Below, in pieces: positions 20,770 through 32,111 of a stretch of 64,000 nt of DNA (position 1 is its first letter; every line of letters starts with the position of its first letter). The translations under genes and the position numbers were made by a program. The notes beneath the pieces were generated by a model that searched no databases, was not told where the DNA came from, and was given only the letters and a program-made list of their open reading frames with translations. Source of the stretch: Parasphingorhabdus marina DSM 22363 (lineage in GTDB: Bacteria; Pseudomonadota; Alphaproteobacteria; Sphingomonadales; Sphingomonadaceae); the NCBI RefSeq assembly GCF_900128895.1, contig NZ_FSQW01000002.1:744001-808000 (forward strand), read 5' to 3'.

Positions 20770-21717
20770 TCAGACCGCAACAGGCGCGGGAATATGGGCC
20801 TGTGGCGAATAATCACGGACTTCGAAGTCTTTGATTTCATAAGCAAAAACCGATTCCGGTTTGCGCAGCAAGTGAAGGGTGGGCGCACCCGACGGGGTCC
20901 GGGCCAGTTGCTCTTCAACCAGCGCTTCGTGATTAAGATACAAATGGACATCACCGCCATTCCAGATGAGCTCTCCTGGCTCCAGATCGCACTGCTGGGC
21001 CACCATTCGGGTCAACAGGGCGGCGGAAAAGACATTGAAGGGAACGCCGAGCGCGAGATCGCAACTGCGCTGCTGGAGCAGGGCCGACAATTTGCCGTTG
21101 GCCACATAAAACTGATAGGTCTTGTGACAGGGCGGCAAAGCCATCCTGTCCAGTTCGGCCACATTCCATCCGGTAAATATGTGGCGCCGTGACCCGGGAT
21201 TGCTCCGGATGCCCTCCACCAGCAGCGCGATCTGGTTTATGCCTGTCTCCGCCTTGTGATACAGCCCGTTACCGGCGGGTTCATAAACCGGCCAGTCAAC
21301 CCATTGCTTGCCGTATACCGGGCCAAGATCACCCCACTGCTCAGCAAATTCCGGGTCCTCAATGATCTTCTGCTCGAAGCTGTCGCGATCAATATCTTCA
21401 CCGGTCGCCCGCCGGTATTTGTCGAGCGGCCAGTCGGTCCAGATATGGACTTTCTGTTTCACCAGTTCCCGGATATTTGTATCGCCCGTGAGGAACCACA
21501 GCATCTCCCGCGCGGCGGTTTTCCAGTAGACCCGCTTGGTCGTCAGCAACGGGATTGCATTGTCTGACAGATCGAAACGCATGGTCGCACCGAACATCGC
21601 CCGCGTGCCGACACCGGTCCGGTCGACCCGTTCGTCGCCGGCTGACCAGATATGGCGCATAAGATCCAGATATTGCTGCTCATAATGCGACGGGTCGAAT
21701 TGCGGCTGGGGAATCAC
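20770..21717 (-). CDS. thyA: Thymidylate synthase
   Basis: ThyA methylates dUMP to dTMP using 5,10-methylenetetrahydrofolate. Signatures are DRTGVGTRAMFG, LLTTKRVYWK, the catalytic cysteine in LPPCHKTYQF, RSCDLALGVPFN (dUMP binding) and the conserved C-terminal valine. The 315-residue form starting at GTG 21717 has GGAG nine bases upstream. A TTG at 21747 would add ten residues and is the alternative. It contains the roughly 50-residue insertion after HIWTDWPLDKYRRATGEDI seen in long ThyA forms. It is transcribed alone, divergent from tRNA-Pro. Confidence 0.95.
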   Translation of the reverse strand: MIPQPQFDPSHYEQQYLDLMRHIWSAGDERVDRTGVGTRAMFGATMRFDLSDNAIPLLTTKRVYWKTAAREMLWFLTGDTNIRELVKQKVHIWTDWPLDKYRRATGEDIDRDSFEQKIIEDPEFAEQWGDLGPVYGKQWVDWPVYEPAGNGLYHKAETGINQIALLVEGIRSNPGSRRHIFTGWNVAELDRMALPPCHKTYQFYVANGKLSALLQQRSCDLALGVPFNVFSAALLTRMVAQQCDLEPGELIWNGGDVHLYLNHEALVEEQLARTPSGAPTLHLLRKPESVFAYEIKDFEVRDYSPQAHIPAPVAV

Positions 21718-21799
21718 TTGTTCTGTCTCCGGCAGGGTGGACAGCAACGCTATACGCCGCCGGAAAGATGCTCAACCGGTGAGTGCAAATTTCTTGGGC

Positions 21800-26374: not shown

Positions 26375-28531
26375 ATGACAACGCGCGTTCTGATTGTGGA
26401 TGACAGGCCGACAAATCTCCGGATTTACGCCCAGTTTGTGACGATAATGGGAGAGAAATACTCTGCCGTTACGTTCGCTGATCCTGTCGAAGCCTTGCAC
26501 TGGCTGCGCAACAACAGCGCAGATCTGCTGATTGTCGACTATCGCATGCCGCAAATGAACGGTGCGGAGTTCATCAAAAAAGTCCGCTCGATGTCGACCG
26601 GCAATGATGTTCCGGCCATCGTCATAACCGCTCATCAGGACCGCGAATGTCGCCTCTCGGCGCTTGATGCCGGGGCCACGGACTTTCTGCAGAGCCCGGT
26701 ATCCCATGTGGAATTCTGCAACCGGGCGATGTCCTTGCTGAGCAAGAGCGAAAAGAGCGTCAATCTGCGTCAGCGTGCCTCGGAGATCGAACGCAAGCAC
26801 GCTGCTGTCGGCGAGCAGGCCGAGGACACCAATACCGGCAAAAGCATGCTCGAGCAGATCATCGACACGATCCCGATCATGATCAACGCGACGGATCGAT
26901 CAGGCAAATGCCTGTTCACCAATGCCTACCAGTCCGCCCTGTTTGACAAGACGCCGGATCAGATGGTCGGCCATGAATTCAGTGATTTTCTGGAACCGCA
27001 GCTGAAGCGGAATTCCGATCGCCGCAATGATATCGTGCTCAAGTCCGGACAGGCGATCCCGCACTATGAGGAAAAATTCACCAGCGATGGTGTCGACCTG
27101 ATCTTCCACTGTAACAAGTCGCCGCTGCTCAACCACAAGGGTGAAACCATTGGCGTCCTCACCACCGCGGTCGATATCACGGCCCGCAAGTTCGCCGAAG
27201 AACACCGGACGCATCTCGCTCTGCACGACATGCTGACCGGCCTGCCCAATCGGGTATTGCTCGCGGAGAAAGTGCGGACGGCGATAGAAACCTGCACCAA
27301 CAGCGAGGAAGAGGCGGCATTGTTGCTGCTCGATCTGGACCGGTTCAAAACCATCAACGATACCCGGGGTCACCATACCGGGGACACGCTGCTGCGCGAA
27401 GTGGCCGAACGGCTGACCTCCATCCTCGGGCCCAGTGATTTCGCGGCACGTATCGGGGGCGATGAATTTGCCATCATTCTCAACAATATCAGCGGCGCCG
27501 AGACGATCAATTCCCGCTGCCTCAAGATCCTGTCCGCGATCAACGAACCTTATTCGATAAGTGGTGTCGACCAGGTTATCGGTGCCAGCATCGGTGTCAG
27601 CCTGATTCCCGAAGATGGCAACGAATATGAAGAGCTGCTCCGCATGGCGGACCTCGCCATGTATGATGCCAAGGCCAATGGCCGCAATTGTCATCGCTTC
27701 TTCTCTGAAGGCATGAACCAGATCGCTCAGGCCAATGCTGCGCTGGAAAACGAGCTGCGGGATGCCATTTCGCAGAAACAGTTTGCCCTGGAATATCAGC
27801 CGATCGTCGATGCGAAGTCCCTCGAATATGTCGGACTGGAAGCGTTGATCCGCTGGGATCACCCGAAAAAAGGGCGCCTGTTGCCGCAACAGTTTATCCA
27901 GGTGGCCGATGATACCGGGCTCATGGACATTCTTGGCAAATGGGTCATTGGCGAAGTCTGCCGCCAGATCCGCGTGTCCGAGGAAGATGGCATCATTCTG
28001 CCGCGTGTTGCGATCAATGTTTCGCCGCGCCAGTTCCAGAACCAGAATGTCTGCGAAGAAATCCTGCGCAATATCGAAGAGAATGGCATTGAGCCCTCCA
28101 AGATTGTCGTGGAAATCACGGAAGAGCTGTTGCTCGACAACAATGAACGGGTCAGCAACACGCTGAACAAGCTGCGCAATGCCGGTGTCGGTATTTCCAT
28201 CGATGATTTCGGTACCGGATATTCCTCGCTGCAATATCTGAGGGATCTGCCGGCGAACTGCCTCAAAATCGACCGGACCTTCATTTCCCGGATCGAACAC
28301 TCACCGGCAGACCGCGCGATTATCGGAACCATTGCCCATCTCGCCCATGCGCTCGATATGCGGGTTATTGCCGAGGGTGTGGAGAATGACGCCCAGCTGG
28401 AACTGCTCAAGGTTTCGGGCTGTGACGAAATTCAGGGTTTCAAGATTGCCCGTCCGCAAAAGGCGGACGATCTGCCCCGGCTTTTTGAAAATGCAGGCTT
28501 TGGAACCGCACGGTCCGCTGGTGGATCATAA
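26375..28531 (+). CDS. Response regulator with PAS, GGDEF and EAL domains (Rpf locus)
   Basis: A 718-residue cytosolic c-di-GMP enzyme. REC spans residues 1-120 with phospho-acceptor D55 (LIVDYRMP) and acidic D9-D10. A PAS domain follows at about 160-275. The GGDEF domain has an intact GGDEF at 361-365. The EAL domain, from about residue 465, carries LEALIRW, EITEELL, DDFGTGYSSL and EGVE, so it looks able to hydrolyse c-di-GMP. Both outputs may therefore be active. It ends two bases before the RpfC-like kinase, so the two are cotranscribed and D55 is the natural target of that kinase. It occupies the role played by RpfG (REC-HD-GYP) in Xanthomonas, while PAS-GGDEF-EAL recalls the Burkholderia DSF receptor RpfR. 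Signal binding by its PAS is untested. Confidence 0.9.
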   Translation: MTTRVLIVDDRPTNLRIYAQFVTIMGEKYSAVTFADPVEALHWLRNNSADLLIVDYRMPQMNGAEFIKKVRSMSTGNDVPAIVITAHQDRECRLSALDAGATDFLQSPVSHVEFCNRAMSLLSKSEKSVNLRQRASEIERKHAAVGEQAEDTNTGKSMLEQIIDTIPIMINATDRSGKCLFTNAYQSALFDKTPDQMVGHEFSDFLEPQLKRNSDRRNDIVLKSGQAIPHYEEKFTSDGVDLIFHCNKSPLLNHKGETIGVLTTAVDITARKFAEEHRTHLALHDMLTGLPNRVLLAEKVRTAIETCTNSEEEAALLLLDLDRFKTINDTRGHHTGDTLLREVAERLTSILGPSDFAARIGGDEFAIILNNISGAETINSRCLKILSAINEPYSISGVDQVIGASIGVSLIPEDGNEYEELLRMADLAMYDAKANGRNCHRFFSEGMNQIAQANAALENELRDAISQKQFALEYQPIVDAKSLEYVGLEALIRWDHPKKGRLLPQQFIQVADDTGLMDILGKWVIGEVCRQIRVSEEDGIILPRVAINVSPRQFQNQNVCEEILRNIEENGIEPSKIVVEITEELLLDNNERVSNTLNKLRNAGVGISIDDFGTGYSSLQYLRDLPANCLKIDRTFISRIEHSPADRAIIGTIAHLAHALDMRVIAEGVENDAQLELLKVSGCDEIQGFKIARPQKADDLPRLFENAGFGTARSAGGS

Positions 28532-28533
28532 TC

Positions 28534-31149
28534 ATGCTGACCAGCAAACATGCCGGAAAAGGGAAATCCGGCAAACATCATTCGCACCGGCATAACGGAC
28601 ACAAGGGCCACCACGGACATCGTGGCCACAAGGGCCATCATGCCGGGCTGGGTCATGCCCAGGACCGCGAACATGAAATGATCATCAACCGGATCGTGCT
28701 GATCATCATCGCATCGTCGATCGCATGGTTTCTTGATGCGGCCCCCGACATCATGATCGCGTTCCAGATCCACTTCATGGTCAGCCTGATGATTGCCATC
28801 GCCTACCGGTTCGACCGGCGTCCCAGCACGGTGCGCCGGCTGGCGGGCATCATCAATGATTTCGGTGCTGGTACCTATCTGTTCCACGTTGGCGGTGCCA
28901 GCCTGGCCGCACTCTATCCGATCTATCTCTGGGTTATCCTGGGATATGGTTTTCGCTTCGGCATAAGCTGGCTGTTTGTGGCCACCGGTCTGGCGACGCT
29001 GTCATTCGGCTGGACAGTATATAATGTCCCCTACTGGCAGGAGAATCTGTCACTGTCGATCGGGTTGCTGATCGGTCTGGCAGTCATTCCCTCTTACTGT
29101 TCCACCCTGATCACGAAACTCTCCCAGGCGAAAGAAGAGGCAGAAGCGGCCAACAAATCGAAGAGCCTGTTCCTCGCCAGCATCAGCCACGAGCTGCGGA
29201 CCCCGCTCAATGCGATTATCGGCTATGGTACGCATTTGCTGGGCATGAAAATGCCGGAAAGCCAGCAGCAGATGATCAGCACCAGCGTGTCCGCCGGTCG
29301 CCACCTGCTGCATCTGATCAATCAGCTGCTCAGCTTCGCCAAGTCGGACTCCCAGGAAGAATTGCCCGAACCGGTAGATTTTTCGATAGTCGATCTGCTC
29401 ACCGACGTTCGCGACATCATGCAGATTGCCGCCGAGGAAAAAGGCCTGGTCATCCATTTGCAGGCCGAACCCATGAGCGATCGTATCGCCGTCGGACAGG
29501 TCGATCATATCCGCAACATCCTCATCAACCTCACCAGCAATGCGGTCAAGTTTACCGACAGCGGATTCGTTCTGCTGAAATGCGGATATGAGGAGGACAA
29601 GGATGGCGACAGTCTCTGGTGTTCTGTCGCCGATACCGGTCCCGGCATTGCCGAAGATGCGCAGGAGCGCATATTCGGCGTGTTCCAGCAAGCCGATGAC
29701 TCTGTCGTCAGCAAATTCGGTGGCACCGGTCTCGGCCTTGCCATCTGCCGGCAACTTGCCCAGCAAATGGGTGGCGACGTTTCGCTGTCGAGCAAAACCG
29801 GCGTCGGCAGCGTTTTCACCCTGTCCTGTCCCATCGCATTCGCCGATACCGAACAGGCCGGGCGCGACAGTGACGCGGAAAAAGTTCATATTCTCTCGCT
29901 GGGCAACTCACCCGAGGCCCCGCAGATTGACATTGCCGACGGCCAGTCCGTCCGAATTGATCATGTCATGCATGTGCCGGGAACCGACATCCTCCAGCTG
30001 ATCGGGAACCGGGATCTGGCGGACTATGACGTCGCGGTTCTGGGCGGAGAATTTGCGGCGCAATATGATGAGGAACATGCACTCTGGTCCATCTTCAGGG
30101 AGGCGAAACTGCCACCTGTGCTCCTTTCCGGCTCGGGCAGCCGTGACCTTGAGGATATCGAGCTTCGTGCGGCATTTGCATCCGTGCTGCCGTCAACACC
30201 CGACTTTGAAACCATCCGCAGCGTTGTCCAGATCGGTTGCTCGTTCAATCGCAGTCTGAAGTCTGCCGAGGATGTCAGTGAGAATATCTTCCTCGAAGCC
30301 CGCCCGCAACGCGTGCTGGTCGCCGACGACAACCGCACCAACCAGATGGTTCTGGAAACCATCCTCAGCAATGCGGGCCATTCCGTAACCGTGGTTCCTG
30401 ATGGTGAAAAGGCGCTGGATGAGCTGGAGAACGAGGCCTTTGACATTGTCTTCCTCGATGTGAACATGCCGCGCCTCGGGGGCATTGAATGTTGCAAGAT
30501 GTGGCGGCAGATTGAAGGATCGCGGGCCCATGTTCCGATCATTGGCCTGACAGCGGACTCGACCGACGAAACCGAAAAAAGATGTCTCGATGCCGGAATG
30601 GATCTCAGACTCACAAAACCGGTCGAAGCTGGGCCGCTGCTGGAAACGATTGTACGCCTGACCAGCAGCGAGGTCAGTCCGGATGTGGTCGATGCAACAA
30701 CCGATCCGTTCAGCACCGTCACCCGGATAACCGACAAAGGCGTTGCGGAGCAACCGGTTTCCATCGATCCGAGCCAGCTAAACTATCTGCGCTCCATCGG
30801 GGACGGGGATTTCGTCCAGTCGATCATCGATGCCTATCTGGAAGACACGGCCACCATCATGGAGGCCCTCGAAAAAGCCGTTGCTGCCGGGAATATCGAC
30901 GAATTCCGTTTCCATGCGCACGCCTTCAAGAGCGGCGCGAACAATGTCGGCGCCATGATGCTCTCGAAAATCTGCGCGCGACTTGAGGTCATCACCGAAC
31001 CGGATTTTGCCGCACATGCGGAAGAACATCTGGAACTGGTCCGAAGCGAGGTCGGACAGATTACGGAATATTTCCGCAATATGGATGATGCCGTGTCGGG
31101 TGAGGATACAGAATCCTCCGATGACGATGCCGTGCGACAATCCGGTTGA
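28534..31149 (+). CDS. rpfC: RpfC-like hybrid sensor histidine kinase with His-rich N-terminus
   Basis: An 871-residue inner-membrane kinase. Residues 1-47 hold 14 histidines in HKGHHGHRG-type repeats. About five membrane helices follow (residues 50-195), and their sequence closely tracks the RpfC sensor (TVRRLAGIINDFG, YPIYLWVILGYGFRFG, PYWQENLSLSIGLLIGLAVIP). HisKA has H219 in ISHELRTPLNA, and the ATPase has DTGPGI and GGTGLGLAI. A divergent receiver-like region (about 450-585), a true REC with D642 in FLDVNMP, and an HPt with H796 in HAHAFKSG complete the phosphorelay. The family detects cis-2-unsaturated fatty acids (DSF). It is cotranscribed with the REC-GGDEF-EAL gene and ends eight bases from the convergent rpfF-like gene. 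Confidence 0.88.
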   Translation: MLTSKHAGKGKSGKHHSHRHNGHKGHHGHRGHKGHHAGLGHAQDREHEMIINRIVLIIIASSIAWFLDAAPDIMIAFQIHFMVSLMIAIAYRFDRRPSTVRRLAGIINDFGAGTYLFHVGGASLAALYPIYLWVILGYGFRFGISWLFVATGLATLSFGWTVYNVPYWQENLSLSIGLLIGLAVIPSYCSTLITKLSQAKEEAEAANKSKSLFLASISHELRTPLNAIIGYGTHLLGMKMPESQQQMISTSVSAGRHLLHLINQLLSFAKSDSQEELPEPVDFSIVDLLTDVRDIMQIAAEEKGLVIHLQAEPMSDRIAVGQVDHIRNILINLTSNAVKFTDSGFVLLKCGYEEDKDGDSLWCSVADTGPGIAEDAQERIFGVFQQADDSVVSKFGGTGLGLAICRQLAQQMGGDVSLSSKTGVGSVFTLSCPIAFADTEQAGRDSDAEKVHILSLGNSPEAPQIDIADGQSVRIDHVMHVPGTDILQLIGNRDLADYDVAVLGGEFAAQYDEEHALWSIFREAKLPPVLLSGSGSRDLEDIELRAAFASVLPSTPDFETIRSVVQIGCSFNRSLKSAEDVSENIFLEARPQRVLVADDNRTNQMVLETILSNAGHSVTVVPDGEKALDELENEAFDIVFLDVNMPRLGGIECCKMWRQIEGSRAHVPIIGLTADSTDETEKRCLDAGMDLRLTKPVEAGPLLETIVRLTSSEVSPDVVDATTDPFSTVTRITDKGVAEQPVSIDPSQLNYLRSIGDGDFVQSIIDAYLEDTATIMEALEKAVAAGNIDEFRFHAHAFKSGANNVGAMMLSKICARLEVITEPDFAAHAEEHLELVRSEVGQITEYFRNMDDAVSGEDTESSDDDAVRQSG

Positions 31150-31157
31150 GGGTCAGG

Positions 31158-32111
31158 TCAGACGGCGCGAAGTGATCGTTGAATACGACGTTCCTGCGCC
31201 AGAGCCAGCCGCTCCATTTTGCGGACATCCGCATCCTCAAGATACAGCGCCGTTTCTGCCCACATGTCCGTGACTTCGAGCAGTTCGTCGAGACTGACCG
31301 GATTGGTAATCTTGCGCGCCCGGTAAACGGCGCGTTCTGCGTGAAAACGCTTATCGTTTTGCCGGGTATAGTTGATGATGGCTGCTTCGCCTTCTCCATC
31401 TTCGGCGAGAATATCCACGACACCCATCTCGTACAGTTCTTCGGCCGTGAACAGTTTGCCTTCGAGAATGAACCGCTCGGTATCCTGCCGTCCCAGTCGC
31501 TGCCGCAAAAAGCTGTAGGCTCCCATTCCCGGGAACAGATTGAACAGGATTTCGGGCAGGCCGAGGCGGGCACTTTTCTCCGCAACGATGATATCAAATG
31601 CCAGCGCATGTTCGAATCCGCCGCCCAGTGCGTCGCCCTGAACCAGGGCCATGGTAATGATCGGCGCGCCAAAACCGGTGCTGTTGGCATGCTGCATGTG
31701 TACACAGGTGCGTGCATATTTCCGCAGAGCGCCAAGATCACGCCGCCGGATGCAGTCGGCAAAATGCTTCAGATCTCCGCCCAGATTGTAAATTCCAGGC
31801 GTCCGTGAACCGCATACGAAATAGCGCAACGGATCCCGACTGTTGGTCACGTCAAATCCGTAATTGGTGTTGATCCAGTCCTGCACCGACTGAATTTCAT
31901 CACCCAGTTCATAAGTGTAGCTGGGACGGGATTTCTGGTTCATGAAACACCAGAAAATCTGATCAGAACGATCAAACCGCAATTCGATTTCGTTGAATTT
32001 CTGATCGAGGATATCGGATCCGTAGACCGGATCGGACTGGATCAAAGACTCGGTCGTGTCAAAGAGCGCATTCTGCTCCCGATCATTGGCGGCCCGACCC
32101 CTGAATTCCAT
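31158..32111 (-). CDS. rpfF: RpfF-like DSF signal synthase (crotonase family)
   Basis: This 317-residue crotonase-fold protein is of the type that dehydrates and cleaves 3-hydroxyacyl-ACP to make cis-2-enoic acid signals (DSF). Diagnostic segments are STGFGAPIITMALVQGDALGGGFE, IVAEKSARLGLPEI and LFNLFPGMGAYSFL. The two glutamates needed in Xanthomonas RpfF (E141, E161) correspond to E167 and E187 here, with the same 20-residue spacing. I start at ATG 32111 because GGAG lies seven bases upstream; the longer open frame to 32222 has no such signal. The N-terminus is about 28 residues longer than in Xanthomonas. The C-terminus faces rpfC eight bases away, the same convergent layout as in Xanthomonas. 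Confidence 0.9.
   Translation of the reverse strand: MEFRGRAANDREQNALFDTTESLIQSDPVYGSDILDQKFNEIELRFDRSDQIFWCFMNQKSRPSYTYELGDEIQSVQDWINTNYGFDVTNSRDPLRYFVCGSRTPGIYNLGGDLKHFADCIRRRDLGALRKYARTCVHMQHANSTGFGAPIITMALVQGDALGGGFEHALAFDIIVAEKSARLGLPEILFNLFPGMGAYSFLRQRLGRQDTERFILEGKLFTAEELYEMGVVDILAEDGEGEAAIINYTRQNDKRFHAERAVYRARKITNPVSLDELLEVTDMWAETALYLEDADVRKMERLALAQERRIQRSLRAV

Follow-up and report, generated by a model that had tools for sequence, protein, structure and literature searches.

Does the alphaproteobacterium Parasphingorhabdus marina DSM 22363 encode a diffusible signal factor (DSF) system and, if so, of what kind? The familiar examples of DSF signaling come from a few gamma- and betaproteobacteria. 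In the window analyzed here, a stretch of 64,000 nucleotides (contig NZ_FSQW01000002.1, positions 744,001 to 808,000), three adjacent genes encode a homologue of the DSF synthase RpfF, a hybrid histidine kinase (HK) of the RpfC type, and a cyclic di-GMP (c-di-GMP) enzyme with receiver (REC), PAS, GGDEF, and EAL domains. This locus is probably a working DSF-family module of an alphaproteobacterial type, in which a synthase-sensor pair would control c-di-GMP and the ligand may be other than DSF.

Organization of the locus

26375-28531, + strand: REC-PAS-GGDEF-EAL gene, 718 amino acids (open reading frame call)
28534-31149, + strand: RpfC-type hybrid histidine kinase gene (sensor, HisKA, HATPase, REC, and HPt), 871 amino acids
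31158-32111, - strand: gene for the RpfF-type DSF synthase homologue, 317 amino acids, convergent with the kinase gene (NCBIfam PRK08788)

Pfam assigns Response_reg, PAS_4, GGDEF, and EAL to the first product, HisKA, HATPase_c, Response_reg, and Hpt to the kinase, and ECH_1 to the rpfF product. By their open reading frames, 2 bases separate the c-di-GMP enzyme gene from the kinase gene downstream, and the stop codons of the kinase and rpfF genes, which face each other as in xanthomonads, are exactly 8 bases apart (31150-31157). The gene positions and the convergent layout agree with a preliminary description made from the sequence alone. The same description spoke of a complete DSF locus in a sphingomonad lineage. 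The synthase-sensor pair is indeed present, but RpfG and RpfB are missing from the locus, which is therefore not complete in the Xanthomonas sense; likewise, the system occurs in this sphingomonad but is not peculiar to sphingomonads and recurs through the alphaproteobacteria. The rpfF start at 32111 is plausible because GGAGAG lies five bases 5' of the ATG. The source genome (3.55 Mb in two contigs) encodes a single full-length RpfF, the remaining 11 matches being partial, with E values from 6.5e-12 up.

RpfF homologue

The best solved relatives of the window RpfF are 7zq7 (E value of 8.9e-55), 3m6m (2.5e-54), 6dgn (8.3e-47), and 5fus (1.1e-46), whereas the next-best crotonase reaches only 1.3e-14. 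The depositors of 3m6m and 6dgn call these proteins RpfF. In a tree of 157 RpfF sequences with two of three intended hydratases from the same genome (L002 and L003, not L004), in which long branches that meet are flagged, the hydratases split off on a branch with a support of 100. Hence, the protein falls outside the group of the two enoyl-CoA hydratases of the ordinary kind tested, a comparison set beforehand as a refuting test, and such an identity is rejected on both the structural matches and the tree. The window protein scores 352 bits against PRK08788, above the cutoff of 177. The two catalytic glutamates are located as follows.

31611-31613, - strand: Glu167 (Glu141 of RpfF), catalytic; E in 157 of 157 RpfF rows
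31551-31553, - strand: Glu187 (Glu161 of RpfF), catalytic; E in 156 of 157 RpfF rows

In the same alignment, G85, G86, and G137, like E141, are found in all 157 rows, and G138, like E161, in 156. The available part of PMC9040811 names G86, G138, E141, and E161 for thioesterase activity and catalysis; all four are retained in the window. From these data, we infer a DSF-family synthase that makes a cis-2-unsaturated fatty acid.

RpfC-type kinase

28648-29166, + strand: membrane sensor with six long predicted helices (structure model, loop charges, hydropathy)
29161-29832, + strand: HisKA and HATPase_c (Pfam); phospho-acceptor His in SISHELRTPLN, assigned by eye
30313-30651, + strand: receiver domain (Pfam; 3m6m_D match); Asp in FLDVNMP, assigned by eye
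30823-30996, + strand: HPt domain (Pfam)

A membrane sensor of the RpfC type, HK, REC, and HPt are thus all present in a gene adjoining rpfF. The kinase REC matches 3m6m_D, the RpfC receiver from an entry that also contains RpfF, at 1.1e-21. The sensor shares 33 to 43% identity with the RpfC proteins that adjoin rpfF in L127 to L129, three loci whose RpfF clears NCBI's RpfF cutoff (tblastn E values of 1e-17 to 2e-20), and 27 to 40% with those of L130 to L132, further loci of the HD-GYP type (4e-22, 5e-20, and 5e-08). The segments TVRRLAGIINDFG, YGFRFG, and PYWQENLSLSIGLLIG, quoted earlier as following RpfC, are in register with RpfC proteins column by column in an alignment of 20 sensors. The homology proposed for both proteins is thus upheld by structure matches, sensor identities, and trees, including the sensor alignment to RpfC that had been fixed in advance as a refuting test.

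A profile built from nine sensors has matches in 13 of 296 genomes of the order Sphingomonadales. All 7 strong matches (E value of 1.7e-57 or better) adjoin RpfF, and the three-gene arrangement recurs in other genomes; a chance neighborhood of rpfF and the kinase is rejected on these grounds. The pair is real and conserved, and it most likely functions as a DSF-type synthase and sensor.

Six weaker sensor matches (L231 to L236; 1e-22 to 1e-32) lie in open frames of 561 to 642 amino acids in genomes without a listed full-length RpfF, and no RpfF is detected by profile in 14 kb around each of them. Five of these six kinases of RpfC kinship lack a receiver by self-built profiles. They are possible listeners to the signals of others.

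Signal-binding motif and N-terminal tail

28534-28656, + strand: His-rich N-terminal tail of the kinase, 13 His in 41 residues
28657-28692, + strand: juxtamembrane motif AQDREHEMIINR, which corresponds to residues 15 to 26 of RpfC; D17 and E19 retained, R15, S18, and Q22 altered

Residues R15, D17, S18, E19, and Q22 of RpfC are required for DSF sensing in Xanthomonas, according to the available part of PMC5391125. Position 19 is E in 82 of 83 kinases. Among those of the REC-PAS-GGDEF-EAL class, E19 is found in 54 of 55 and D17 in 47 of 55, and position 18 varies (17 S, 12 T, 13 R, 9 G, and 4 others). At position 22, one kinase of this class has T and the other 54 have M, I, or L; the residue is Q in all 9 kinases with a REC-PAS-HK partner and all 9 with an HD-GYP partner, and the 10 kinases without a recognized partner have Q (6) or M (4). 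Similarly, all but one of the 55 have N at position 25, where kinases of the two other classes have I, V, or L.

In a kinase tree computed with the sensor columns excluded (and without L208, L209, and L223, which are repeats, L152, which is cut, and short sensor kinases lacking REC), residue 22 changes three times and the partner class twice, or five times if rows without a recognized partner count as others. Given so few changes, residue 22 is a shared inherited mark rather than a case of repeated co-change, and the difference appears to be largely one inherited change. Its correlation with the partner is rejected as independent evidence, with at most one informative pair.

His-rich tails of 5 to 13 His and up to 45 residues also precede the motif in L147, L149, L150, L151, and L162 and are limited to the clade of the window among the kinases scanned. 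The tail is a possible metal input.

Membrane topology of the sensor

The preliminary description gave the sensor five membrane helices. An AlphaFold2 model based on 57 sequences, with a mean predicted local distance difference test score (pLDDT) of 93.4, has six instead (residues 8-28, 33-55, 61-89, 91-104, 106-126, and 134-172), with a five-residue turn at 128-132. Hydropathy averaged over 88 rows (not 83, as short paralogues of three loci were entered under locus names) has six peaks that match the model helices, the HD-GYP class included. In this set, the mean number of K and R residues is 5.11 in the N-terminal tail, 0.56 in loop 1-2, 3.07 in loop 2-3, 0.00 in loop 3-4, 1.47 in loop 4-5, 0.36 in loop 5-6, and 3.17 on the C side. 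Positive charge is thus concentrated in the N-terminal tail, in loops 2-3 and 4-5, and on the C side, a pattern that fits six spans with a cytoplasmic N terminus. On balance, the model favors six spans for the RpfC-type sensor, and the loop charges would place its DSF-binding end in the cytoplasm; the helix at 91-104, being short, could be re-entrant. The published RpfC scheme has five spans and an N terminus called putatively periplasmic; its source, in the part available, reports no topology fusions and does not mention PhoA.

Among solved structures, Foldseek ranks the six-span cyclase Rv1625c/Cya first for the sensor model (7yzk_A; TM-score of 0.47 at a probability of 0.97 and an E value of 0.15), and no PDB match is found at an E value of ≤0.001. 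Since the sensor sequence finds 0 matches among solved chains up to an E value of 10, a sequence link to the cyclase anchors is rejected. The predicted sensor resembles the CqsS receptor and the Rv1625c/Cya anchors in having six membrane helices (available parts of PMC4821796 and PMC9433096) and the Cya anchor also in its cytosolic, positively charged N terminus. The former paper, as far as available, likens CqsS-type six-span quorum receptors to cyclase anchors; RpfC is mentioned in the accessible text of neither. However, the TM-score is only 0.47, and kinship of the sensor to these anchors is not established and is offered as a lead.

Partner regulator

26387-26722, + strand: receiver (PF00072; receiver tree); phospho-acceptor Asp in DYRMPQMNG, assigned by eye
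26864-27190, + strand: PAS_4 (PF08448, 1.2e-11; AlphaFold2 model with a pLDDT of 86.5)
27218-27688, + strand: GGDEF (Pfam)
27749-28456, + strand: EAL (Pfam)

As the preliminary description stated, a c-di-GMP enzyme gene adjoins the kinase gene. Relative to xanthomonads, it occupies the place of RpfG. Its GGDEF, EAL, NVSP, EITE, DDFGTG, KIDR, and AEGVE motifs are all intact; among 57 partner proteins of this architecture, GGDEF or GGEEF is found in 54 and the tested EAL set in 52. A tree of 79 receivers places 45 partner receivers (25 from REC-PAS-GGDEF-EAL, 11 from REC-PAS-HK, and 9 from REC-HD-GYP proteins) on one side of a branch with a Shimodaira-Hasegawa-like approximate likelihood ratio test support of 99.8. 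The opposite side holds the receivers of 11 RpfC proteins and 23 further receivers from the source genome, the latter without the own-genome locus matches L244 and L250. This grouping with RpfG receivers suggests a swapped output and supports a single receiver lineage with exchanged outputs, in which the RpfG output may have been replaced by PAS-GGDEF-EAL.

The PAS model has 617 PDB matches in Foldseek at an E value of ≤0.001, and the 50 listed are PAS domains of many ligands; its description as a proven fatty acid pocket is rejected for that reason. The PAS domain of RpfS is also given as PAS_4 by Pfam in the available part of PMC4504480.

Phyletic distribution

The named loci are the best 80 of at least 575 RpfF relatives from a scan of named genomes, and the shares given here lean to window-like loci; partner classes come from self-built profiles on few sequences, and contig ends hide partners. 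An RpfC-type kinase is accompanied by REC-PAS-GGDEF-EAL in 50 of these 80 loci (48 of them with the kinase convergent with RpfF), by REC-PAS-HK in 8, by neither recognized partner in 7, and by HD-GYP in 1; a membrane GGDEF-EAL protein without the kinase is found in 2 loci, and none of these genes in 12. Of the 66 loci that have a kinase, 61 carry the rpfF and kinase genes in convergent orientation, the median distance separating the stops being 35 bases. Forty-five of the 50 triad loci are labeled as alphaproteobacteria, three have no class, one comes from a Burkholderiales metagenome-assembled genome, and one is labeled Mycobacterium; the genera include Ancylobacter, Roseomonas, Inquilinus, Microvirga, Aureimonas, Gluconacetobacter, Sphingomonas, and Novosphingopyxis. 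No report of such an RpfC/REC-PAS-GGDEF-EAL system in alphaproteobacteria was found among the open-access titles and abstract openings listed, subscription journals being outside the scope of that search.

Within the order, full-length RpfF is encoded in 60 of 296 genomes (that of the window and 59 others), with the window-type triad in 5, the kinase with REC-PAS-HK in 2, and membrane GGDEF-EAL in 12. The triad is a minority in the order and is common among the alphaproteobacterial loci closest to the window RpfF. Members of the order occupy three places in the RpfF tree. The first is a 54-row clade with a membrane GGDEF-EAL neighbor or none recognized, in which L139 alone belongs to a different order. 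The second consists of L042, L044, L045, and L048, the four rows with REC-PAS-HK. The third is the clade of the window RpfF and Sphingomonas jatrophae, placed among RpfFs of alphaproteobacteria, most of which occur with RpfC-type kinases.

Several variants were observed. In 15 loci (L043, L046, L047, L049 to L052, L060, L062, L066, L067, L074, L139, L213 of Sphingomonas paucimobilis, and L221), rpfF is convergent with the gene for a membrane-anchored GGDEF-EAL protein, from a 70-base overlap to 48 bases apart, and no RpfC is recognized; the membrane part has no RpfC sensor by self-built profiles. This protein is a candidate for a further DSF receptor class. A clade of 39 rows from the family of the window genome (L053 to L096 without L060, L062, L066, L067, and L074) retains the RpfF catalytic residues, and a sensor is recognized nearby in none of its members. 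In L042 (7820-9886, + strand) and L045 (7019-8911, - strand), RpfF is fused at its C terminus to a heme-oxygenase-like iron redox domain (PF14518; 2.2e-19 and 2.6e-21), a fusion also found by profile in L044 and L048 (L223 is a repeat of L045). All four fusion genes adjoin REC-PAS-HK; those of L042 and L045 also have an RpfC-type kinase beside them. Some heme-oxygenase-like iron enzymes act on fatty acids, and the signal of the fusion loci may be modified further. One or two additional short kinases with RpfC sensors separate the full-length kinase from the gene for the GGDEF-EAL protein in L165, L166, and L189, the last of which is labeled Mycobacterium sp. yet groups with Inquilinus in the kinase and RpfF trees.

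A thymidylate synthase gene, recognized by eye only, is the upstream neighbor in the window (20770-21747) and in L038 to L041. Promoter and terminator scans gave 5 versus 3.5 and 7 versus 5.3 in shuffles, near the shuffle level, and were not used.

Comparison with known DSF systems

The locus shares with the RpfF-RpfC-RpfG system of Xanthomonas and Stenotrophomonas (rpfBF, rpfGHC) homologous RpfF and RpfC, the convergent genes, a kinase consisting of sensor, HK, REC, and HPt, and a regulator gene upstream of the kinase with an akin receiver. It differs in the regulator output, PAS-GGDEF-EAL instead of HD-GYP, in the DSF motif, where Gln22 and Ser18 of Xanthomonas RpfC are Met and Arg, and in the absence of an adjoining RpfB. 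No RpfB match lies within 6.5 kb of the window rpfF, whereas one is found in all six loci L127 to L132. Elsewhere, the source genome encodes 15 ligases akin to RpfB (the best with 36% identity over residues 48-571 of 576; identities of at most 36 to 40%), and by homology, one of these acyl-CoA ligases may have an RpfB-like role. Likewise, no REC-HD-GYP protein is encoded in the locus, where PAS-GGDEF-EAL follows REC instead. The source genome has one HD domain of the HD_5 type, in a 446-amino-acid open frame (G000:C2:393906-394382), and none of its 25 receivers is found nearby.

With the RpfF-RpfR pair of Burkholderia and Cronobacter, the locus shares a tightly linked RpfF, which is convergent with PAS-GGDEF-EAL in L144, one of three such loci compared (the RpfR label of L142, L144, and L145 was assigned from architecture). 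Unlike the window protein, RpfR is itself the sensor, without a receiver and without RpfC; the receiver and the adjoining RpfC-type kinase lead us to reject an RpfR identity. The rpfFCG cluster of Leptospirillum also combines RpfF, an RpfC homologue, and a response regulator outside xanthomonads, but its regulator is an HD-GYP RpfG and the cluster is described, in the available text of PMC8357829, as running in one direction, in contrast to the convergent arrangement and PAS-GGDEF-EAL output of the window.

Alternative explanations

Several points weigh against a working DSF module. The window RpfF scores 221 bits against the RpfF equivalog NF053515, below the cutoff of 550. This cutoff is passed in just 3 of 398 genomes and is thus a marker of a narrow branch: the xanthomonad-type RpfF of L129, which when judged by eye is almost the same as 7zq7 in the part printed, passes it (580 bits; 412 for PRK08788), the RpfF beside the RpfR-type gene in L144 does not (184 bits; also 412), and failure therefore marks only distance from the xanthomonad branch. 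In 41 of the 60 RpfF genomes of the order, neither an RpfC-type kinase nor membrane GGDEF-EAL is found next to RpfF (two of them, L044 and L048, carry REC-PAS-HK near contig ends), and RpfF alone is therefore no proof of such signaling. Both facts would suit a crotonase with another duty, such as acyl-acyl carrier protein (ACP) thioesterase or membrane lipid upkeep, that partners the kinase receiver and regulates by contact rather than by a diffusible signal, as would the Xylella RpfF variants that still support signaling without catalysis (available part of PMC4504480). We regard this explanation as improbable, since the glycines and glutamates of thioesterase activity and catalysis are retained in nearly every RpfF row and every strong RpfC-type sensor in the 296 genomes adjoins RpfF.

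The window also keeps only two of the five DSF-sensing residues (D17 and E19), R15 being replaced by A, S18 by R, and Q22 by M, and for that reason the kinase may bind a ligand other than DSF; the link between residue 22 and partner type, with at most one informative independent pair, is statistically weak. In addition, the receiver tree rests on 121 columns, and its 25 GGDEF-EAL-class and 11 RpfC receivers were hand-picked. The altered motif, the His-rich tail of the window's clade, and the related sensors in six genomes without a listed full-length RpfF could all be explained if the kinase sensed a non-DSF input (membrane state, exogenous lipid, or metal via the tail), with RpfF feeding in indirectly. 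Against this stand the retention of E19 and D17 in most kinases of the class and a neighborhood with RpfF that is conserved across distant genera, and we consider such an input quite improbable.

Proposed mechanism and implications

In the favored reading, a DSF-family module controlling c-di-GMP, RpfF would produce a cis-2-unsaturated fatty acid from 3-hydroxyacyl-ACP, as its family and conserved catalytic residues suggest. The RpfC-type kinase would bind this signal in its six-helix membrane sensor and autophosphorylate, and phosphate would pass from the kinase to its own REC, then to HPt, and on to the receiver of the c-di-GMP enzyme (REC-PAS-GGDEF-EAL), whose gene lies just upstream. Judging from domain order and intact motifs, this enzyme would shift the c-di-GMP level, most likely through EAL phosphodiesterase activity. 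The kinase REC probably also restrains RpfF, as in Xanthomonas.

A wider interpretation, which we consider doubtful as a whole, would make the alphaproteobacterial locus a third core branch of DSF signaling, with PAS-GGDEF-EAL refitted to an RpfG-type receiver and a changed ligand site (Gln22 to Met, Ile, or Leu, and Asn25) for another fatty acid dialect. RpfC-type sensors would then generally have six helices and an inside N terminus, a CqsS/cyclase-anchor design, and take their ligand from the inner leaflet or cytoplasm, not the periplasm, at a conserved group of residues formed by Glu8, Arg15, Arg63, Arg64, Asp71, and Arg103 (model numbering). If the ligand site does face the cytoplasm, RpfF docked on the kinase REC could pass its product on directly.

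Many alphaproteobacteria thus combine the DSF synthase-sensor pair with a different c-di-GMP output, and the residue difference at position 22 may provide a handle on ligand choice. The predicted topology also calls into question the orientation in the membrane that is generally accepted for the model DSF receptor, RpfC.

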